Below the pieces are notes generated by a model. The model ran no database searches. It had not been told where the DNA came from and saw only the letters and a list, made by a program, of their open reading frames with translations. Position numbers and translations under genes: made by a program. 45,195 nt of DNA from a bacterium (GTDB lineage Bacteria > Calditrichota > Calditrichia > RBG-13-44-9), in contig CP070707.1 in assembly GCA_020350205.1 (NCBI GenBank), positions 1,706,057-1,751,251 of the forward strand, given 5' to 3'. Positions 868-33,139 of the stretch are shown here, piece after piece (the first letter of the stretch is position 1; every line of letters starts with the position of its first letter).

Positions 868-1125
868 ATATTTAGGTTTCATAGATTAGTAAGTTCAGAT
901 TTAAAAGGTCCTGGTTTTTATTTTCTATAAGAGAATAAATTTTACCATAACGGGTTTATAGTTATTCACTTGCATTTTTATTCACGAAGTCGGGAGAAGG
1001 CAATCAGATTAGAGTTTGTTTTTTTAAAGTATAATAAATTGAGAATATTCAAACTTGACAATCAGTGCTTTATATAGATAGAAGATACATTTAATTTAAT
1101 CATGGTCATTTTTGGAGGAAAAGGA
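868..1125. other. AT-rich intergenic leader before the TonB receptor gene
   Basis: No gene is seen. A TTGACA hexamer lies at 1055-1060, but no good -10 box stands at 16-18 bases from it. The stretch presumably holds the promoter of the following three-gene cluster. Confidence 0.4.
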
Positions 1126-4062
1126 ATGGTTATGCGATTTTTAATCCTATTATGTGCGCTTTTATTGTTGCCTTCCTTGATATTATCCAGCACCACAGGG
1201 AAGTTAAGTGGCGTGGTGACCGATCAGAGTACCGGTGATCCCCTGATTGGTGTAAATGTGGTGATAGAAGGAACCACGATGGGCGCATCGACAGATATTG
1301 ACGGGTATTATGTAATTCTGAATGTAGCAGCGGCGACGTACAATGTCACCTTCAATTACATCGGATACCGGTCGGTTTCAGTGGAAAATGTTCGGGTGGT
1401 CCCCGACATTACCAAGCGACTGGATATCGGTATGGAAGAAACCACTATAGAACTGGGTGAGCAGATTGTGGTAACTGCCGAGAGGCCGTTTTTTGAGGCA
1501 TCTGCTACCAATACCGTGCGGGTACTGGATTCAGAGGAAATACAAAAAGTTCCGGTAAAAGGTGTGAACCAGATCGTGAGCCTGAATGCAGGGGTGGTGA
1601 TGCAGGACGGAAGCGGGGGAGAAACTGATGCTGCGGTTTTAAATGTTCGCGGAGGCCGAGGCAATGAGACCCTCTATGTGGTGGATGGCATTCCGTTTAA
1701 CGATGCACTTTTCGGAAATGCCCTGGGAACCATCCCCGATAATGCAATTGAACAGGTTTCCTCACAGCTGGGTGGATTTAGCGCAAAATATGGTAGTGCG
1801 CAGTCTGGTGTTATTAATATTGTCACCAAAAGTGGTAATCCCAAGTATTTTGGGAGCTTGGAAGGAATCTCTTCCAGTATAACGGATAATTATGGGTATA
1901 ATGCGGTAAACGGAAGTTTTGGTGGTCCCATCATTCCGGGAAATAAAACCTATACTTTCTTCTTATCCGGTGAGTATGTCTCGGCCGATGATGATAATCC
2001 CCGGGCGGTAAATGTAGAGATTCCGGCAACGGTGGGAAGAGACGGCACAGTATTCCCGGAAGTGAAATATGATCAACTCCCTTATAATTCCAGTGAACTT
2101 ATCCGGTTCGTAGGGAAATTCGATGCCAATTATGACCGATTTAAGGCCACCCTGAGTTTCAATGGTTCTTTACGGGATGCCCAGGACTTCACACAATCCT
2201 ATGCAAAACACAATGCGATTCACAATCCGATTATTAAAGAAGACGGGTTAGGCACTTCATTGAAATTGACCGGCGTGATCGATCAGACGACCTTTATTGA
2301 TTTTATTGCCCGCTACCGTTACGCCTGGCACGAAGAAGGTGATGGTGTCTGGTTCGACCAGCTTGATTCCTATGGAGATACACTGGCAAATCGCGCAATT
2401 GGTGTTGAGCTGCGAGACCAGGGTGCCAGGGTTTTACGCGATATCAATGGTGTCTATTACTTGCCGGGAAGAGCCTATAACCGCTATCGAAAATATGAAA
2501 CGGAAACATTTGGTGCCGATTTTTATTTTACCAAACAGTTTAAAGAGCATCTGATTGAACTGGGTGGTACTTTGCAACAGGATAGAAGCAGTTTCTTCGA
2601 TCTCTCTCCACTGGATGTGGCTCCCGGACTCAGAACTCCCGGTGTACCGGCAGAACAACGTTATTATGCGGGTATAATCTCTCACTGGGGTTATGACTTA
2701 ACCGGAAATGAGATAAACTCTACCATTTGGGGCGATGTAACAACTGATGCAATTAATAATCAAACTGATTTTGTCGAACAATCCGGACCTAAAAAACCCA
2801 TCCTGGGTTCGCTCTATTTTCAGGATAAAATTGAATTTGCTGATTTTATTTTTAATCTGGGTATTCGCTGGGATTATTTCGATCCCAAATCAAACCGCTT
2901 GAGAGATCCGTTTTATCCTCTGGCATTCAGCCGGACCGGGGATCCATTTACCGGAGAATTGGTCTTTTCTCCCGACACTGATACAAAACTTGATCCTGCA
3001 GATTATGAAGAAATGCCGGCCGAATCTTATATCAGTCCGAGACTGGGATTTGCTTATCCGGTTACCGAACGAACCGTTTTTCATGCCCAGTATGGGGTAT
3101 TCCGGCAGTTCCCGAGATATGTTGACCTCTATGATTCCTGGGTTGCCGTAACGCAGCTTGAAAGAGATGCACAGTTCTTCGTCAATACCGGACACCTGCA
3201 GGCGGAAACCACCACTCAATATGAGTTTGGTTTTAAAAATCAGATTGGAAATTATGCCAGTCTGGATATCACGGCTTTCTATAAAAATGTAAAAGGATTA
3301 ACCAATACCACCTCGCAGCAGTTTAAAAGAGGACAGCTGGATTTGCGCTATCTCTCAATTGTGAACTCAGATTTTGGCACTGTAAAAGGGTTTGCATTCC
3401 AGTTTAATCTGAGGCGAATTGGTCCGCTTTCCGGGAAAATCGATTATACATTCTCACTGGCGGAAGGAACCGGTTCAAGTCAAACCAGTTCTTACGTGGC
3501 CGCCTTCCGGAATCCGCGCGGTGAAATACCTTCCGCCATTGCACCATTAGATTTTGATCAGCGTCATACCCTGACCGCCAGTTTTGATATTCGTGCGAAC
3601 CGGGGACAGGGACCCCGCTTTATGGGAATTCGGCCGCTGGAAAGTACCGGCGCCAATTTCCTGATTACCTATAACAGTGGTCGTCCCTATACACCGGTAG
3701 AATCACTCAATGCTCTGGATAGTGAAACCAACTACGGTGCGCTGACCCAGTATGTTAACTCAGCTTATGCTGCCGGAATTTTTCGTATTGATTTAAAGAT
3801 TGATAAAGCCTTTTATCTTGGACGAATTACCATGGTTCCGTATCTCTGGGTACAAAATGTACTTGATCGGGATAATTTTATTCAGGTGTGGCGTTCTACC
3901 GGTCAACCGGATAATACCGCTTATCTGGAAACCCCTCAGGGTCAGTTGAATATCCAGAGCAGTGGACCGGGATATGCCTCGGACTATAAAGCTTACGAAC
4001 GTGATCCGGAAAATTATGGTACACCACGCACCATCCGGTTGGGATTACGGGTTCAGTTCTAA
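1126..4062 (+). CDS. TonB-dependent receptor with carboxypeptidase-regulatory-like N-terminal domain
   Basis: This is an outer-membrane active transporter of about 978 residues. A signal peptide (MVMRFLILLCALLLLPSLIL) is followed by a CarboxypepD_reg-like domain (about 25-110; GKLSGVVTDQSTGDPLIGVNV), a plug domain (about 120-240; LNVRGGRGNETLYVVDGIPF and YGSAQSGVINIVTKSG) and a long beta-barrel ending in a terminal Phe (GLRVQF), as is usual for outer-membrane barrels. Start choice: GGAGG at 1114-1118 is 7 bases from the ATG at 1126. The in-frame ATG at 1102 has no ribosome binding site. The gene is 36 bases upstream of a large exported protein and in the same direction, resembling SusC-type loci but without a recognisable SusD. 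The substrate is unknown. Confidence 0.93.
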   Translation: MVMRFLILLCALLLLPSLILSSTTGKLSGVVTDQSTGDPLIGVNVVIEGTTMGASTDIDGYYVILNVAAATYNVTFNYIGYRSVSVENVRVVPDITKRLDIGMEETTIELGEQIVVTAERPFFEASATNTVRVLDSEEIQKVPVKGVNQIVSLNAGVVMQDGSGGETDAAVLNVRGGRGNETLYVVDGIPFNDALFGNALGTIPDNAIEQVSSQLGGFSAKYGSAQSGVINIVTKSGNPKYFGSLEGISSSITDNYGYNAVNGSFGGPIIPGNKTYTFFLSGEYVSADDDNPRAVNVEIPATVGRDGTVFPEVKYDQLPYNSSELIRFVGKFDANYDRFKATLSFNGSLRDAQDFTQSYAKHNAIHNPIIKEDGLGTSLKLTGVIDQTTFIDFIARYRYAWHEEGDGVWFDQLDSYGDTLANRAIGVELRDQGARVLRDINGVYYLPGRAYNRYRKYETETFGADFYFTKQFKEHLIELGGTLQQDRSSFFDLSPLDVAPGLRTPGVPAEQRYYAGIISHWGYDLTGNEINSTIWGDVTTDAINNQTDFVEQSGPKKPILGSLYFQDKIEFADFIFNLGIRWDYFDPKSNRLRDPFYPLAFSRTGDPFTGELVFSPDTDTKLDPADYEEMPAESYISPRLGFAYPVTERTVFHAQYGVFRQFPRYVDLYDSWVAVTQLERDAQFFVNTGHLQAETTTQYEFGFKNQIGNYASLDITAFYKNVKGLTNTTSQQFKRGQLDLRYLSIVNSDFGTVKGFAFQFNLRRIGPLSGKIDYTFSLAEGTGSSQTSSYVAAFRNPRGEIPSAIAPLDFDQRHTLTASFDIRANRGQGPRFMGIRPLESTGANFLITYNSGRPYTPVESLNALDSETNYGALTQYVNSAYAAGIFRIDLKIDKAFYLGRITMVPYLWVQNVLDRDNFIQVWRSTGQPDNTAYLETPQGQLNIQSSGPGYASDYKAYERDPENYGTPRTIRLGLRVQF

Positions 4063-4098
4063 AAATAACGATATTGAATATGATAGAGGAGTGAAAAC

Positions 4099-7000
4099 AT
4101 GCAATATAAATTTGCTTTGATCTTGTTCATGCTTCTTTTTACTGTTTTCTCTCTTTTTGGAGAGGACAGCAAAAAGATTACTTTTAAGAAACCTGCAGTT
4201 GTCGGGCAGGTCACCCGGATCGAAGTGAACCGGATTGATATGGCACTGGAGAACAATGGCAATACGGGTCTGGATGGGGATACCTATTATCCTGCCGGTA
4301 CCAATACTTCTTTCCTGTTTGCAGCAGGCCCCTGTCTCTCCGGTTATGTTAATGGTCAACTTCGCACAGCCTGGATGGCTTCGGCTTCACGTATTTATGA
4401 AACCCAGGCTGGAAAATGGCAGATGGATCCCACGGACCCCCGGGCCAAATTTTATGAGGTCGATAGTGATGATACCCAAGACAGTACCGGCTATATCGAA
4501 TGGGCCGAAGCGGTCGCATTAGGTGCCGGTTTTCAGGATGTTAATGGAAATGGGGTGTATGATCCTGAAAATGGAGACAGGCCCGATATACTGGGTGATA
4601 AAACGATCTGGTGTGTCTATAATGATGGAACAGATATCGTCGCCCGAACACCCCGTTTACAGACTCCGCCACTGGGACTTGAAGTTCATCAAACGGTTTG
4701 GGGCTTTAACCGCGGGGATGCACTGGGAGATGTGGTGTTTTTCCGATTCAGGCTTATCAATCCCACCGCAAACGATATCGTGGATCTGATCTTTACCGGC
4801 TGGACTGATCCGGACCTGGGTGATCCCTATGATGACCTGATTGCCTGCGATACCACGGTGAGTCTCGGATACATCTATAACTTCCAGGATGATTTGAATT
4901 ACGGCCCGAATCCTCCTGCTTTCGGGATTGATTTTTTCCAGGGTCCGATTGTGGAAACCGGAAATCCCACGGATACTGCCTTTGTGGCCGGTGGTCCATT
5001 TTTTGGTGTGGATACTATTCCGGGCTGGGTTAATCTTCCCATGACCTCCTTCATGTACTATATCCAGAGCGATCCGGTACTGGGAGATCCGGATTTGGCC
5101 ATTGTTGCCCGGAGGTATCAGGAAGGTGGACTCGACAAAGAAGGCCTGCCCATCGATCCCACATCCAGAGGATCTGGCGGTACAGCGTCAACTGATCCCA
5201 GATATATTTTCAGTGGTGATCCGGTGAGTGGTGAAGGGTGGCTGGATGATACCCCGGATGACAAACGGTTTATGTCCAATTGCGGTCCTTTTCAATTGGC
5301 AGCCGGTGATACCCAGGATATCGTACTTGCTTATGTGGTAGGCAGATCGGGAAGTGCCCTCAGCAGCGTCACCAAGCTGAAGGAAAATGATGTGCTGGCC
5401 CAGGCATCCTATGACAATAACTTTAAGGCAGCTCCGCCCATCCCCAAACCTAAAGTAAATGTAAGAACATTTGAGGAAGAGAATAAGATTGAACTGGTTA
5501 TCGATATGTATGACTGGTTCGAATATAAAGATATTCAGGATGTGGTTGGATTTGTCCAATTTGAAGGAATGAAAATATATCAGTTTAACTCAGAATCTAC
5601 TGAAGATGAGGTCAACGGAAGAAATAATGCCATCCTGATTGGTTCCTTTGATCTGGATAATGAATATGGAGATATCTATACTGAAACCGATCTGGGACCG
5701 CAACGGGTGTATCAGGCCGTTAACAATATCGATGAGGAGAATTATCCGGATCCGCGAGGTCGCTATATTACCTTTACAGTAACGACCGATGCCTTTGACA
5801 ACAATAATCCTTTAGTCAGTTTTAAGGAATATTATTTTTCGGTAATCCCCTTTGCTGTCAATACTGTACTGGCTTATCCCAATGATGCAACGCCAACTCC
5901 CAACGACTGGGTGATTCCCGGCGGACCGTTGGAACTCACCCGGCAAGCCGGTTTCTTCAGGGCAACACCCTCCGGTGCAACCAATCGCCCCTTCTATGAC
6001 CTGGTTTATGACCCGGAATCTGATGGCGGCGTGAGCTATGAAGGTTCCCGTACCCTGTTCCAGGGATCTGTCGGGGTAAGTACCATCAGCCAGGGTAGCG
6101 TCACTGCGCATGATTATCAGGTGCGTTTTATTGACGGCGGAAATCTGTGGCAGCTGGTAGATTTATCCGATAACAGTGTCAAAATAGACAGTTTTTCCTA
6201 TCAGGGAACCACCTTCAATGACTGGGCTTTTCCGGTGGTGGATGGTGTTTCTGTGAAAGTGCTGAATGTCGCAAATAATATTGATACGGCTGATGTGGTA
6301 GATGCTGAGACCGATAGTGTCTGGTTACGGGGACGGGAATTCTCAGGATTTTCTGAGTTTGCCACCTTCGATAATGGTGTAGATATGGTGAAGGATATCC
6401 AGGACCTCCCGGACTTCAGATCAATCAATTTAAATTCTCAGATAAATAAAGAGCAATATTTTCCGGTGAAACTGGTGTTTAACACCAGCAATAGCTCTAA
6501 GGGATATTTCTATAACCGATCTACCCCTCTTTATCTGCCAAACTTCTATGGTGGATTAGCGGACACTTATCTGGAAGCGTATGATGTGACCGATGAGATT
6601 AATCCCCGGAAATTAAATATTGTCTATAACGCGACCAACGGTGAGCTTGTCTTTGTGCAGGGAAACCGAAATCTAATTTTTATTATGGCAACCGACTATT
6701 CTGAGGATGATCTTTACGATCCGGGCAATGCCAACGGCCGTGAATTCCGTGAAGATGCCTATCTGGTCATAAATCTGGAGCAGATTGACAGTACCACGGT
6801 GCAGGCTGGAAAAATGACCCTCCTGGCCACACCATTCTTCCCGAATTCCGAAGCTGATGTTTTCCAGTTTTCAACTCAGACCCTTCGAGGTGTCTTAACA
6901 CAGGATCAGCAAATAAGTGAGTTGGATAAGATTAAAGTTGTTCCCAATCCCTATTTCGGATACAGTGGATATGAAACCAGTTATGACAGGCCGGTTTTAA

Positions 7001-7236
7001 AGTTTACCCATCTTGGAAACGAAACCACAATTCGGATCTTTACGCTGGCAGGACAGCTGGTTCAAACACTCCAGAAAAATGGACCTGAAAGTGAAATCTC
7101 CTGGGATCTGCGAAATGAGAATGGATTGAGAATTGCCTCCGGCATGTATATTGCCCATGTTGAGGTGAAAGGCGTCGGAGAACGGATCATTAAATTTGCC
7201 GTTATCCAGCGTGAAGAACGTATCGATAGATTTTAA
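4099..7236 (+). CDS. Large exported protein of unknown function with divergent C-terminal sorting-like domain
   Basis: A 1045-residue protein with a clear signal peptide (residues 1-21, ending SLFG). The bulk is Asp/Gly/Asn-rich and predicted to be beta-rich, and no enzyme motif was recognised. An acidic stretch near residues 150-165 (DVNGNGVYDPENGDRPD) resembles a calcium-binding Asp/Asn loop. The last 100 residues (from about 945) begin KIKVVPNPYFGYSGYE and continue with IRIFTLAGQLVQTL, SWDLRNENG and ASGMYIAHVEV. This follows the T9SS type A fold order but lacks the usual YPNPFNP and ends in a charged tail (REERIDRF). AGAGGAG at 4085-4091 supports the start. It lies between a TonB receptor and a PorV-like gene with gaps of 36 and 44 bases, so the three probably form one operon. 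It may be a surface partner of the receptor; this is inference. Confidence 0.85.
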   Translation: MQYKFALILFMLLFTVFSLFGEDSKKITFKKPAVVGQVTRIEVNRIDMALENNGNTGLDGDTYYPAGTNTSFLFAAGPCLSGYVNGQLRTAWMASASRIYETQAGKWQMDPTDPRAKFYEVDSDDTQDSTGYIEWAEAVALGAGFQDVNGNGVYDPENGDRPDILGDKTIWCVYNDGTDIVARTPRLQTPPLGLEVHQTVWGFNRGDALGDVVFFRFRLINPTANDIVDLIFTGWTDPDLGDPYDDLIACDTTVSLGYIYNFQDDLNYGPNPPAFGIDFFQGPIVETGNPTDTAFVAGGPFFGVDTIPGWVNLPMTSFMYYIQSDPVLGDPDLAIVARRYQEGGLDKEGLPIDPTSRGSGGTASTDPRYIFSGDPVSGEGWLDDTPDDKRFMSNCGPFQLAAGDTQDIVLAYVVGRSGSALSSVTKLKENDVLAQASYDNNFKAAPPIPKPKVNVRTFEEENKIELVIDMYDWFEYKDIQDVVGFVQFEGMKIYQFNSESTEDEVNGRNNAILIGSFDLDNEYGDIYTETDLGPQRVYQAVNNIDEENYPDPRGRYITFTVTTDAFDNNNPLVSFKEYYFSVIPFAVNTVLAYPNDATPTPNDWVIPGGPLELTRQAGFFRATPSGATNRPFYDLVYDPESDGGVSYEGSRTLFQGSVGVSTISQGSVTAHDYQVRFIDGGNLWQLVDLSDNSVKIDSFSYQGTTFNDWAFPVVDGVSVKVLNVANNIDTADVVDAETDSVWLRGREFSGFSEFATFDNGVDMVKDIQDLPDFRSINLNSQINKEQYFPVKLVFNTSNSSKGYFYNRSTPLYLPNFYGGLADTYLEAYDVTDEINPRKLNIVYNATNGELVFVQGNRNLIFIMATDYSEDDLYDPGNANGREFREDAYLVINLEQIDSTTVQAGKMTLLATPFFPNSEADVFQFSTQTLRGVLTQDQQISELDKIKVVPNPYFGYSGYETSYDRPVLKFTHLGNETTIRIFTLAGQLVQTLQKNGPESEISWDLRNENGLRIASGMYIAHVEVKGVGERIIKFAVIQREERIDRF

Positions 7237-7280
7237 TGATCGAAAAGAAAAGATTTCGACTATAAAGAAAGGGATAGAAA

Positions 7281-8297
7281 ATGAAGAAGTTTATCATCTT
7301 ATTTGTAATTCTGCTCTGTTCTTCATTTCAGATATATGCCGGTGATGTATCCAAAATCGGTACGGTATCCGGAACCGAATTGCTGATACCCGTTGGGGCT
7401 CGCTCTATCGCACTGGGAGGGGCGGTACTGAGTGATGTCAAAGGGGCAGAGGCGATTTACTGGAATCCGGCTGGGGTGGCATATTCTCAGAAATCTGAAA
7501 TCACCTTCAGCAATATGTCATATATCGCTGATATTGATGTGAATTACATTGCAGGAACGATTCGCGCTGGCGTGGTCGGGACATTTGGGTTACATCTCAA
7601 ATTCCTGAGTTTTGGAGACATAGAAGAGACCACCGTAAATGCACCGGAAGGCACCGGGAATACCTACTCTCCCAGCTTCTCCACCTTCGGCCTGACATTT
7701 GGGAGAATGTTGACCGACCGGATCACGGCCGGTGTGACTGCTAAATATATTTACGAAGGAATTATGCAGACCAGTGCCAGCACATTCGCCTTCGATATGG
7801 GTATTCAATATGCCTTTAATAACAATCTGCGTATGGGTGTTACCCTTTTGAATCTGGGTGGAAAACTGAGTTTTGACGGTCGTAATCTGGAACAGCCGTT
7901 TCAGATTCCCAATGCACCGCCTACTGCTGAGGATGGTTATTTCCGGGCAACACCACTGTCATCGAATATACCGAGTACCTTCTCGTTTGGTTTCTCCTAT
8001 AGTGCGAATATTAATGAAATGAACGGTTTGCGGTTAACGGGAGCATTTTCAAATTTTAATGAATCTTCCGATCAACTCTTTGGAGGAATGGAATATGGCT
8101 TTCGCCAGATGTTCTTCCTGCGGGGCGGATATGCCTATAATGTGCAGGAATCCAGTGACGCCATATTTGGGTATTCTCTGGGTGCCGGCTTCCATTTCCC
8201 AATCGGTGGATTTGAATTTACTCTGGATTATGCATTCAGAGATGTAACGGATTACTTTGATGCCAACAACGTGTTCAGTATTACTTTCGGATTATGA
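7281..8297 (+). CDS. PorV/PorQ-like outer-membrane beta-barrel protein
   Basis: A 338-residue protein with a signal peptide (MKKFIILFVILLCSSFQIYA) followed by the characteristic N-terminal block of PorV/UPF0164 proteins: IPVGARSIALGGAVLSD then GAEAIYWNPAGVA. The rest alternates amphipathic strands as expected for a FadL-related barrel. In Bacteroidota PorV escorts T9SS cargo after translocation, so the role here could be general T9SS cargo handling or a dedicated partner of the upstream 1045-aa protein. It is the last gene of the receptor cluster and is followed within 30 bases by a strong terminator. The family assignment is firm; the exact role is inferred. Confidence 0.85.
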   Translation: MKKFIILFVILLCSSFQIYAGDVSKIGTVSGTELLIPVGARSIALGGAVLSDVKGAEAIYWNPAGVAYSQKSEITFSNMSYIADIDVNYIAGTIRAGVVGTFGLHLKFLSFGDIEETTVNAPEGTGNTYSPSFSTFGLTFGRMLTDRITAGVTAKYIYEGIMQTSASTFAFDMGIQYAFNNNLRMGVTLLNLGGKLSFDGRNLEQPFQIPNAPPTAEDGYFRATPLSSNIPSTFSFGFSYSANINEMNGLRLTGAFSNFNESSDQLFGGMEYGFRQMFFLRGGYAYNVQESSDAIFGYSLGAGFHFPIGGFEFTLDYAFRDVTDYFDANNVFSITFGL

Positions 8298-29896: not shown

Positions 29897-31267
29897 TTAA
29901 AAACGGTAGGAAAAGTTTAGTAGTAATTTATGGATCAGGATATCTTCAACTGTGCCCGCAGGATTCAAATCGTCTGAGGTATTGAGCTTCCAGAAACCGA
30001 TCATATAAGCGGCATCAATTTTAAAAATTCTGTCTAAGAGAACCCCGTAACCAAGACTGACATATTTTCGGTCATAATCAAAATCATAACCCTTTAGTGG
30101 GGTGGGATCGTAAGCCAGTCCTGCCCTGAATTGGGAGGCCAGGAAAGGAATTCCAATTTCTCCGCCAAGTTTTACTTGTAAAGTTCCCCGATAATCTGTC
30201 TGAAAAAACTTATTCATTTCTCTCAAGTCTGAAGAAGTGAATTTGAATTGAGTCCAATCAGTGTAGGCCAGACTCCCGGTAGCAAGAATCGTCCCGAGTT
30301 TTAAAGTTGCACCTGCTTGAAAACGGAAAGGGGTCTTTACTTTATACTCATAAGTTGCATCATCACTAAAATCAGAGACATCACCATTGTCAAAATATAG
30401 TGAGGCATCATAGCCGTAATCTTCGGATACAGTAAAAGTATGGGGGATATCCATCCCCAGCCCGAGCCGAATGATTCGCCCCAGACGCATCATGGCACCA
30501 AATTTTGCGTTAAATGAAGAATATTTACTTGTTATATAGCGGGTTTCCTGATATTCACTGAAGTCAGCCGGCGGATTGAACAAATCGAACTGATCGAATT
30601 GATTGAATTCCACCAGATACTCACTTTTTCCTGTCCAGTAATTAAGTGCCAGACCCAGGGAAATATTGGGAGATACATCGATCGCTCCACCCAGAGACCA
30701 CTGTTCAAGGGATCCATCATCAGTCACCAGACCGGTTTTTGCCATATCCTGCCCCCAAAAATCGTAGACATCATCGGGATTGTTGACATCTACCCCATCA
30801 AATGATAACCAGGCAGTTCCGCTATCCGATACCCCATCATATTCATTTGAGTATTCAAAATCCTTTATTTTCTGATACCCCAGGGCAAACACCAGGCTTC
30901 CCTGGTAAGTAGGAACCGGGAATACTAATCCGATTGAATTAAATTTGGTGGCACTGGTGGAAGAGGTTGTATTGGATCCGTTGAAATCAATCTCGTTGCT
31001 CTGATATAGGTGCGAAAATCCCAGGAAAAATTCTGATTTTCGAATCTGAGCTAAACCGGCAGGATTCCAATAAATGGCGGAGTAATCGTCAGATACTGCG
31101 GTATAGGTCCCTCCCATTCCAAGTGCCCTGGCTCCGAAACCGATTTGGTTATCGAGGATACGAATGGCATCATCCGGACCCTGTGATAATGCTATCTGAC
31201 ATGTTAATACGAGAATTGTACTAATACTGGTAACAAATTGACGGAGTATATATTTTTTATAATTCAT
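29897..31267 (-). CDS. FadL/OmpP1-like outer-membrane transport protein
   Basis: A 456-residue protein with a signal peptide (about 10-29, ending LSQ). The FadL/PorV-type N-terminal block is present (GARALGMGGTYTAVSDDYSAIYWNPAGLAQ), followed by alternating beta strands and a terminal aromatic residue (LLNFSYRF) that marks outer-membrane barrels. FadL-type channels admit hydrophobic substrates such as long-chain fatty acids; the related PorV group assists T9SS. The longer barrel and extracellular loops here fit FadL/TodX better. It is monocistronic on the minus strand. Confidence 0.85.
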   Translation of the reverse strand: MNYKKYILRQFVTSISTILVLTCQIALSQGPDDAIRILDNQIGFGARALGMGGTYTAVSDDYSAIYWNPAGLAQIRKSEFFLGFSHLYQSNEIDFNGSNTTSSTSATKFNSIGLVFPVPTYQGSLVFALGYQKIKDFEYSNEYDGVSDSGTAWLSFDGVDVNNPDDVYDFWGQDMAKTGLVTDDGSLEQWSLGGAIDVSPNISLGLALNYWTGKSEYLVEFNQFDQFDLFNPPADFSEYQETRYITSKYSSFNAKFGAMMRLGRIIRLGLGMDIPHTFTVSEDYGYDASLYFDNGDVSDFSDDATYEYKVKTPFRFQAGATLKLGTILATGSLAYTDWTQFKFTSSDLREMNKFFQTDYRGTLQVKLGGEIGIPFLASQFRAGLAYDPTPLKGYDFDYDRKYVSLGYGVLLDRIFKIDAAYMIGFWKLNTSDDLNPAGTVEDILIHKLLLNFSYRF

Positions 31268-31595: not shown

Positions 31596-31626
31596 ACGGG
31601 ATGCCCTGCCTCTCTGAGCATCCCGT
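31596..31626 (-). terminator. Terminator of the low-complexity lipoprotein gene
   Basis: A perfect 9-bp stem (31596-31604 with 31618-31626) lies 60 bases beyond the minus-strand stop codon. The minus-strand tail is T-rich (TTTCCATTTA). Confidence 0.65.
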
Positions 31627-31685
31627 GCTGATGATCTGGTGAAAAGAATCGTCCAATAATTACCTATTCTCATCAATCATTCTAC

Positions 31686-32666
31686 CTATTTCCGTGAAGT
31701 TGATCTGGACCCTCCACTACTTGAGCTGCGAGAACTTGATCCGGAACTCGATGAAGAGCTGCTCCCACTGGAACTGCGTCCGGAAGAAGACCTGGAGCCG
31801 CTCGAGCTGCTCTGTGGTTTGTAAGATGAAGAATTTCGGCCGCTACTTCGACGGTTATTATAGCCTGAGGAACTGGAGCTTCTTCGATTTGAGCTGGATG
31901 GTTTATAGCTGCTGCTCCTGCGGGAGGAACTTCTGTTTGAATTGATGGATGAGCGATTTGAGGAACCACGGGTTCCTCGGGTCTCAATTGATCTGCCGGA
32001 TGAGGCACTGCTCCGAGTAATCTGTTCTCTGTCATCAACCCCTCGTCGGACGATACGACTGGATTCTCCGCTCGAACCGCGGGCACCAGATACCGTCGCT
32101 ACACCCCGTGGATTGCGGGTGTTGGTCGGTGAAACTTCCTGCCCGGCAGTTGTCCCGCCACTCCCTCTACCGCCACGGGCAACAGATCGCGGGGATATGG
32201 GGGATCGTCGGTCAAATGGCCTCTTGGCATATTTCGGCGAATAATGGTGATAATATGGGGGATAGTAATAATATCCCCAGGCGGGATACGGGGCGTAATA
32301 GCCAGCATAAGGTGTAACGTAGGGATAACAACATCTGCCATACCATCCCCAGGGGTACCAGTAAGGATCTCCCCAGTAAAAAGAAAACCCGACATACCAG
32401 CCCCAGCGGGGAGTGGGTCTCCAATACCAGGGATCATACCAGGGATTATACCAGGGATCGTAATAATAAGGTGGTGTGTAGACATAGATATTGGTGATGG
32501 TACCCAACTCGGCTTGGGTGCTGTCTAAATAGTAGTAATCTTCATCAACGTAGATAGCTGCCGGTTCTTCCATTCGGGGTTTGGCAAATTTCATCTGGGT
32601 ATAACAACCCAGCATAAATACCGATATGATAATGATTGGAAAAATCTTGAGGATCAAATTTTTCAT
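31686..32666 (-). CDS. Lipoprotein with Tyr/Trp/Pro-rich middle and Ser/Arg-rich tail
   Basis: About 326 residues. The signal peptide ends in a lipobox (FMLGC), so Cys21 is probably acylated. Start choice: AGGAG lies 5 bases before the ATG at 32664-32666; a longer frame to 32687 lacks a site. After about 50 ordinary residues the protein becomes aromatic and proline-rich (about 65-145; repeats such as DPWYNPWYDPWYW). It then becomes Arg/Gly/Ser-rich, ending in about 100 residues of almost pure Ser, Arg, Gly and Asn. The tail must be disordered and strongly basic. No enzyme domain is visible. An adhesive, cell-wall-binding or matrix role would fit, but this is inference. The Ser-rich repeats create long spurious frames on both strands. 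Confidence 0.85.
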   Translation of the reverse strand: MKNLILKIFPIIIISVFMLGCYTQMKFAKPRMEEPAAIYVDEDYYYLDSTQAELGTITNIYVYTPPYYYDPWYNPWYDPWYWRPTPRWGWYVGFSFYWGDPYWYPWGWYGRCCYPYVTPYAGYYAPYPAWGYYYYPPYYHHYSPKYAKRPFDRRSPISPRSVARGGRGSGGTTAGQEVSPTNTRNPRGVATVSGARGSSGESSRIVRRGVDDREQITRSSASSGRSIETRGTRGSSNRSSINSNRSSSRRSSSYKPSSSNRRSSSSSGYNNRRSSGRNSSSYKPQSSSSGSRSSSGRSSSGSSSSSSSGSSSRSSSSGGSRSTSRK

Positions 32667-33139
32667 GATTTCTCCTTTCGTGCTCACTTTATGTTTAACG
32701 GCAACATAGATTCATGGTTCCTTATTTATTATAGAGGAATACCATAATAAAATCAATATAAATAATAATAAAAATTCGCGTAATTTCTGTGATGAAGCAC
32801 ACTCGAGCAGAGTGCAATTTATATTAAGCTGTCTATAGCAGTTTGCGACATACTGAATATAATTGAACGGGCCCGGGAACTTGGAAGAAGGATTTACCAT
32901 TCAAATATCAAGCCGGGAAATGCGTGAAATGCTAATTTCATTCTCATTGCGTTGAAAATTAAGTCGATAATAATTGTAGAGACAGTGAAAAAATGAGGAT
33001 AGGTAGACATTTAACTGCTGTAGCTAATAATCTACTGAAGAAGCCGAGAACTTTTGAGTAAATCTAAGGTTTAAGGTTGCTTAGGCGAAAGTTGAAATGT
33101 AAATTGAGTAGGCTAAAATAAACAAGGGGTTTTGCTATA
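32667..33139. other. Divergent intergenic region between the lipoprotein and clpC
   Basis: About 470 AT-rich bases with no convincing gene; a 62-codon minus-strand frame (32712-32900) lacks a ribosome binding site. It carries the promoters of both flanking genes. No CIRCE-type or CtsR-type repeat was found ahead of clpC. Confidence 0.5.
33092..33119 (+). promoter_or_regulatory. Candidate sigma70-type promoter of clpC
   Basis: TTGAAA (33092-33097) and TAAAAT (33114-33119) are 16 bases apart. The predicted start site near 33126 would give a short leader and would favour translation from the ATG at 33155. Confidence 0.4.

Follow-up and report, generated by a model that had tools for sequence, protein, structure and literature searches.

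What is a bacterial lipoprotein doing with a chain that runs from an ordinary lipobox into a block of tyrosine, tryptophan and proline and then into a long serine/arginine tail? The gene in question lies at 31686-32666 on the minus strand of a 45,195-nucleotide stretch (the window; contig CP070707.1 of assembly GCA_020350205.1, positions 1,706,057 to 1,751,251) of a Calditrichota genome that is a single contig of 4.06 Mb. A sequence-only reading of this DNA had likened the protein to adhesive or phase-separating proteins; the barrel gene next to it, and the regulation that most copies have of their own, are absent from that account. Computation supports a module of lipoprotein and outer-membrane barrel, together with its regulation, through the pairing of the two genes, the composition of the lipoprotein, the fold of the barrel, and the sigma54 sites and palindromes found on most copies. 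Tentatively, at slightly short of an even chance, we take the lipoprotein to be half of an outer-membrane module that has not been described, in which a barrel is paired with a sticky, polycationic lipoprotein chain that binds anionic polymers.

The open reading frame (ORF), with a GGAG Shine-Dalgarno sequence just 5' of its ATG, encodes the lipoprotein with an ordinary lipobox that the sequence-only reading had described (VFMLGC, lipidated at Cys21). Maximal-segment scoring divided the mature chain into residues 21-60, 61-146 and 147-326. The middle segment is the aromatic-dense region with DPWY-type repeats that had been noted, and it is 44% Tyr+Trp. The Ser/Arg tail of about 100 residues was likewise read correctly: in the last 100 residues, Ser makes up 52%, Arg+Lys 19% and S/R/K/G/T/N together 91%. 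The protein matched nothing in Pfam or NCBIfam up to E=1. Its AlphaFold2 model (30 sequences) had a predicted local distance difference test score (pLDDT) of 49 and no secondary structure beyond the signal helix, with pLDDT of ~72 for residues 21-40 and below 60 afterwards. This low-confidence model, lacking a fold, is in keeping with a disordered chain of the sticker type.

A single-protein search of 98 genomes returned 11 lipoproteins, the window's included, all of them full-length and of the same architecture. A lipoprotein profile search was positive in 33 of 40 genomes of the class, one of which (G009) holds only a fragment at a contig edge, and a phylum-wide search gave the same 40 genomes. 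When the seven profile-negative genomes were searched again with a barrel profile (E up to 1e-20), five had the barrel, and an intact lipoprotein adjoins it in four of these. In G004, an ORF with a Ser/Arg-rich stretch is cut by the contig edge beside the barrel, and G028 and G019 had neither barrel nor lipoprotein at the thresholds used. The lipoprotein total for the phylum is 37 of 40 genomes (33 by profile, including the G009 fragment, and four through the barrel). Pairing with the barrel was counted within the phylum over 39 loci, consisting of 34 loci, the second copy in the window's genome and the four found through the barrel; G009 and G004 were left uncounted because of their contig edges.

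The combination that had been called unusual is indeed so: an aromatic window together with an S/R/K-rich end was found in 38 of 39 lipoproteins and in 0 of 269 other ORFs (at least 150 residues long, from 35 sources, namely 34 related loci and the window). The check proposed in that reading has a positive outcome: composition is kept while sequence drifts. In an alignment of 30 sequences (the window's and 29 named ones, across phylum labels), C-Y-T were the sole invariant residues, and they are invariant in the alignment of 11 sequences too, whereas the acidic-aromatic-basic order held. The linker is negative in 38/39 phylum proteins and in 28/30 from named contigs. The tail is positive in 39/39 (median +46) and 30/30 (median +15), respectively. 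At least two of the last four residues are basic in 38/39 and 26/30, and the final residue in the phylum is Arg in 30, Lys in 8 and Asn in one. The lipoprotein appears to be selected for composition and not for sequence. In one locus (L048:8596-8967, in G034), a second, short lipoprotein gene (123 residues, CYTQLA) immediately precedes the full-length gene and may be a partial duplication.

The low complexity of the sequence is the only point in favor of a translation or assembly artefact, to which we assign a negligible probability. The same frame and architecture recur in the 37 phylum genomes (one as a fragment) and in 30 named contigs. The Ser codons of the tail are mixed (TCC12 AGC12 TCA11 AGT9 TCT6 TCG2), and one 12-bp unit present three times was the sole tandem repeat detected in 31600-32760; the tail is therefore no artefact of a DNA repeat. 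Conserved frame, conserved architecture and mixed codons together rule out a frameshift as well. Neither of the outcomes that would have refuted the sequence-only reading, a lack of homologues of similar composition or frameshifted relatives, came about.

The lipoprotein is accompanied by a barrel. In all 39 phylum loci with contig left beyond the lipoprotein gene, a barrel gene of one FadL-type subfamily lies downstream on the same strand, either immediately or after one small gene. Scanned with the barrel profile, the named genomes gave at least 511 relatives among 585 stretches. The best 80 were analysed and fall into 34 strong matches (L087-L120, all at E 1e-41 or below) and 46 weaker ones of the FadL family (L121-L166, all at E 1e-16 or above). 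Of the weaker set, 44 cover the N-terminal part only, and L121 and L123 are low-scoring matches over most of the barrel length. A CYT lipoprotein is adjacent to 32 of the 34 strong matches, upstream in 27 (three with one intervening gene) and downstream in five; the two barrels without it, L087 and L117, end at contig edges, where L087 has a Ser/Arg/Lys-rich ORF. The same filter, reaching out to 3.5 kb on the same strand, found no such lipoprotein for any of the 46 weaker matches; flanks of at least 1.5 kb before and 2.8 kb after the match start were available for 35 of them. The titles of the 34 strong-match records carry seven phylum-level labels (Calditrichota, KSB1, Ignavibacteriae/Bacteroidetes, Marinimicrobia, Poribacteria, Latescibacteria and Gemmatimonadota), and the top named matches are mostly Calditrichota/KSB1 metagenome-assembled genomes. 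Because the outer neighbourhoods differ, the pairing is not simple regional synteny. The adhesive-like reading stands in part: the composition and the predicted lack of a fold fit it, but the protein is not a lone adhesin, one barrel subfamily being its constant neighbour.

The window barrel passes PF03349 (Toluene_X; FadL/OmpP1) with 46.9 bits against a gathering score of 29.7, and its AlphaFold2 model (33 sequences; pLDDT 86.6, predicted template modelling score 0.81) has the FadL fold with the N-terminal hatch. It shares family and fold with FadL/OmpP1/TodX and differs from them by its constant low-complexity lipoprotein neighbour and a longer N-tail. VIA-align grouped CymD, TbuX, TodX, FadL and BamG together at Z 32-36 against the model. 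PorV of the type IX secretion system (T9SS) is likewise a FadL-family barrel; chain F of T9SS entries, which we take to be PorV, was a weaker fold match (Z ~27), and the window barrel misses the PorV/PorQ (NF033709) cut-off with 53.9 bits against 90. One alternative is hydrophobic-compound uptake, in which the aromatic block would gather substrates and pass them to a FadL-type transporter. CymD, TbuX, TodX and FadL head the VIA-align matches (Z 33-36), tied with BamG, and NPA is kept in 32 of the 34 barrels examined, the other two having NPG. However, no hydrocarbon or fatty-acid genes were seen to recur beside the pair in the examined neighbourhoods, and the recurrent metabolic genes in the vicinity, which lie on the opposite strand, resemble succinate dehydrogenase as judged from their translations only. 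We consider uptake distinctly unlikely.

The best Foldseek matches to the barrel model were 9hiv_F (E 2e-22), 9n2d_B (2.8e-19) and 9hjm_F (4.1e-19), at a template modelling score of ~0.6, with FadL/TodX next; these chains come from three entries of the β-barrel assembly machinery (BAM), and we presume them to be BamG. In the VIA-align comparison, two BamG chains begin to match at model residue 31 and a third at 35, and FadL/TodX chains at 35-45, mostly 38-39. Since FadL residue 2 corresponds to model residue 38, the mature N-tail would be ~8 residues longer than that of FadL, assuming that it starts at Gln29. The spacing from the conserved Gln to NPA is 39 residues in 31 of the 32 NPA barrels and 40 in the other. 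Excerpts of PMC12578637 and PMC12611786 describe BamG/BamH and BamG2/BamH2 of the Bacteroidota BAM as likewise having a FadL-fold barrel, an extended mature N-terminus and a lipoprotein partner, with the N-tail of BamG running through the lateral opening. The window pair might therefore be variant BAM subunits, a second BamG/BamH pair, as the Foldseek matches (E 2e-22 to 4e-19), the extended N-tail and the placement of a FadL barrel beside a lipoprotein (a layout to which the numbering Bt1785/Bt1786 of BamG2/BamH2 points) would allow. We find this very improbable. The barrel scores 77.9 bits against a BamG (NF053685) cut-off of 250, and a better match elsewhere in the genome (G000:C1:107763-108896) reaches 178 bits over its full length, itself below the cut-off; on these scores the barrel was rejected as a BamG ortholog. 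BamH is a folded two-domain surface lipoprotein, whereas the window lipoprotein model shows no fold, at low confidence (pLDDT 49), and the lipoprotein has no lipoprotein export signal (LES). The genome's best BamG match (L180:2437-4903) has its own adjacent upstream lipoprotein, starting CSEDP and acidic after the cysteine, a possible BamH equivalent with no match in Pfam or NCBIfam.

Regulation divides the copies into two groups. Group A has clpC divergently upstream (G000, which is the window copy, G001, G002, G003, G009, G010 and G018); G015, with no clpC on its contig, was placed there for the likeness of its pair to that of G010, and G009 has clpC and was left out of the promoter counts. 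Group B comprises all remaining loci, 28 including the second copy in G000. A gene for a sigma54-type response regulator lies upstream in 24 of the 28 group-B loci, and a large histidine kinase precedes it in 21 of those, the other three ending at contig edges; a HAD-like gene intervenes in several of the group-B loci labelled f5. The one kinase scanned contains FG-GAP repeats and UnbV_ASPIC, and the one regulator scanned contains Response_reg, Sigma54_activat and HTH_8.

In the 300 nt ahead of the lipoprotein start, a strict sigma54 pattern occurred in 26/27 group-B loci (G011 has no upstream sequence present), compared with 0/7 in group A and 2/251 other ORFs. The site lies at 30-44 nt in 23 loci and at 207-232 nt in three. 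Three of the four loci found through the barrel also have the pattern, G006 being without it. The palindrome GTWAACNNNGTTWAC (up to two mismatches) was present in 23/26 group-B loci, 0/7 group-A loci, 26/251 of the background and 5.8% of shuffles, often in duplicate at a spacing of 22-33 nt, with one copy ~100-115 nt ahead of the -24 element. Weight-matrix scoring gave single-promoter p values of 0 to 0.39 against mononucleotide shuffles in the non-clpC loci, and our sigma54 claim rests instead on the position-stable strict pattern. For the window copy, the strict pattern found no -24/-12 sigma54 site within 300 nt upstream. A scan for sigma70-like promoters gave eight matches in the region against 4.8 +/- 2.4 expected, one of them 5' of the lipoprotein gene. 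The window's genome holds a second, group-B module (C1:831.6-839.6 kb) with kinase and regulator, a sigma54-like site TGGCATTTCATTTG 207 nt upstream and two weak palindromes of two mismatches each; its lipoprotein was missed by the lipoprotein profile. The histidine kinase next to this second pair (L175, G000:C1:828000-841000) is large and of the FG-GAP type.

With an FG-GAP-type sensor kinase and a sigma54 activator adjoining many copies, the lipoprotein could be an RcsF-like sensor, a disordered chain threaded through or seated on the barrel that reports the envelope state to the adjoining kinase. RcsF, an outer-membrane lipoprotein complexed with a barrel (OmpA/OmpC/OmpF), offers a parallel; it has a disordered linker after the lipid, for which excerpts of PMC7553776 mention a proposed threading model and call it unproven. 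The window lipoprotein differs in its dedicated barrel neighbour and in its much longer aromatic and basic chain, with no folded signalling domain predicted. Moreover, the clpC-linked copies, the window's included, have no kinase next door, and because of the promoter and the palindromes the pair looks like the output of the regulator. We therefore give an RcsF-like role a small probability.

The side of the membrane that the chain faces bears on a further alternative, which we regard as unlikely, that the barrel is the membrane anchor point of the lipoprotein and the tail is not at the surface. The LES rule, as given in an excerpt of PMC12578637, calls for at least two acidic residues within six positions of the lipid cysteine. 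This was seen in 0/39 lipoproteins of the phylum and 0/30 named ones; even a single acidic residue at +2 to +7 was seen in 0/39 and 4/30. In the SusD-like lipoproteins of the same phylum, 16/16 had at least one acidic residue and 10/16 had two, with 6 of the 22 loci uncounted for want of a recognised lipobox. The absence of LES-type acids after the cysteine, the conserved basic C-terminus (38/39 and 26/30) and the long chain with no predicted fold all fit an anchor point of this kind. FadL-type barrels, however, expose little in the periplasm. An Lpp-like crosslink uses Lys, and the last residue is Arg more often than Lys, so such a crosslink is not general. The barrels are negative in 31/31 (median -22), and the acid of the window barrel is mostly in long loops, assigned to the outside from strand order. 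Acidic barrels with acid in presumed outer loops count for surface exposure, and the topology evidence conflicts. The charge contrast is modest, since five other FadL-family paralogues in the genome span -17 to +15.

Several points weigh against the reading of chain and barrel as one regulated module. The absence of LES-type acids, unlike in the SusD-like lipoproteins, makes the surface position doubtful. Charge compensation between barrel and lipoprotein was looked for in 31 pairs and rejected, as the Spearman correlation of +0.43 had the wrong sign. The low pLDDT of the lipoprotein may reflect poor alignment instead of disorder. The sigma54 and palindrome patterns were both defined after inspecting the sites, and G017, G029 and G033 carry the sigma54 motif without a regulator gene next door. 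In the window copy, a gap of 418 bp separates the two genes and holds a terminator-like repeat (seen by eye at 31596-31626 and absent from an inverted-repeat scan that allowed loops of 3-8 only), so co-transcription is uncertain. Finally, we infer the docking of the chain on the barrel, its ligand and its membrane side.

In the barrel-lipoprotein module that we favor, a lipid-anchored disordered chain, made of acidic linker, aromatic stickers and polycationic tail, would work with a dedicated FadL/BamG-type barrel that docks it at the outer membrane. The chain would act as a multivalent glue: its aromatic residues may self-associate, and its basic tail may bind anionic polymers, such as lipopolysaccharide or exopolysaccharide, extracellular DNA or cell wall. 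Many lineages would switch the module on through a two-component system (an FG-GAP-sensor kinase with a sigma54 activator). The copy in the window, which lies near clpC and has no sigma54 site, is probably expressed otherwise. A bolder reading, which we consider doubtful, is that of an undescribed machine of the outer membrane, present under seven phylum-level labels, whose dedicated FadL-type barrel would carry and perhaps export the lipoprotein. The latter, intrinsically disordered and of acidic-aromatic-polycationic make-up, would condense into an adhesive or protective coat that can be induced, with the FG-GAP kinase and sigma54 as the switch in many lineages.

Table 1. Features of the lipoprotein-barrel locus, in window coordinates.
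Feature	Position	Strand	Basis
Lipoprotein gene, 326 aa	31686..32666	-	ORF reading; ATG at 32666, stop 31686-31688
Signal peptide and lipobox cysteine, residues 1-21	32604..32666	-	C21-Y-T conserved in alignments
Acidic linker, residues 22-60, net -4	32487..32603	-	maximal-segment scoring
Tyr/Trp/Pro block, residues 61-146, 44% Tyr+Trp	32229..32486	-	maximal-segment scoring
12-bp tandem repeat, three copies, in DPWY/NPWY repeat	32424..32459	-	repeat scan
Motif KRPFDRRS, residues 148-155, start of tail	32202..32225	-	R149 invariant, F151 nearly so (11-sequence alignment)
Ser/Arg/Gly/Asn tail, residues 147-326, net +28, basic C-terminus	31689..32228	-	composition
Sigma70-like promoter match 5' of lipoprotein gene	32728..32756	-	consensus match only
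FadL/BamG-fold outer-membrane barrel, 456 aa, likely partner	29897..31267	-	Pfam match, predicted fold, synteny
9-bp GC-rich inverted repeat, terminator-like, between the genes	31596-31604/31618-31626		by eye

Other genes recur around the pair. One small CxxCH lipoprotein gene intervenes between lipoprotein and barrel in G002, G003 and G018; the 418-bp gap of the window was checked for such a gene and holds no remnant. Small CYT lipoproteins of this kind are found at L095:5341-5961, L096:5211-5930, L044:5713-6294, L045:2423-3019 and L067:9389-9970. Four of the five were scanned against Pfam and gave weak matches only, none confident, and their CxxCH motif is a possible c-type haem or metal site. 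A protein of ~250 residues with a 'PTAG' ('PTAGL') motif, probably in the outer membrane, recurs near the pair in 13 of the 34 named loci and in G018 (L095, L096, L099, L103, L105, L106, L107, L108, L110, L112, L115, L117, L120 and L067). The L067 copy matched no family above cut-off, and a search of the window's genome, run without a positive control, gave no match. At 1102-8297 of the window, genes for a TonB-receptor-like protein, a large protein with a sorting-type C-terminus and a PorV-like protein follow one another, a secretion- or uptake-like cluster as judged from the translations.

Judged by titles and abstract openings, the open-licence literature yielded no description of the lipoprotein or of the pair. 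Pairs of barrel and lipoprotein (SusCD, BamGH, RcsF with outer-membrane proteins) are central to outer-membrane biology, and the lipoproteins of the known pairs are largely folded. If the lipoprotein and the barrel described here form a complex, it would be a bacterial example of a disordered protein of the sticker type that is anchored in the membrane and has a defined partner. The lipoprotein is near-universal (37/40 genomes) in a barely studied phylum that has a cultured member, Caldithrix abyssi, and the sigma54 promoter with its palindromes offers an immediate handle on the inducing signal.
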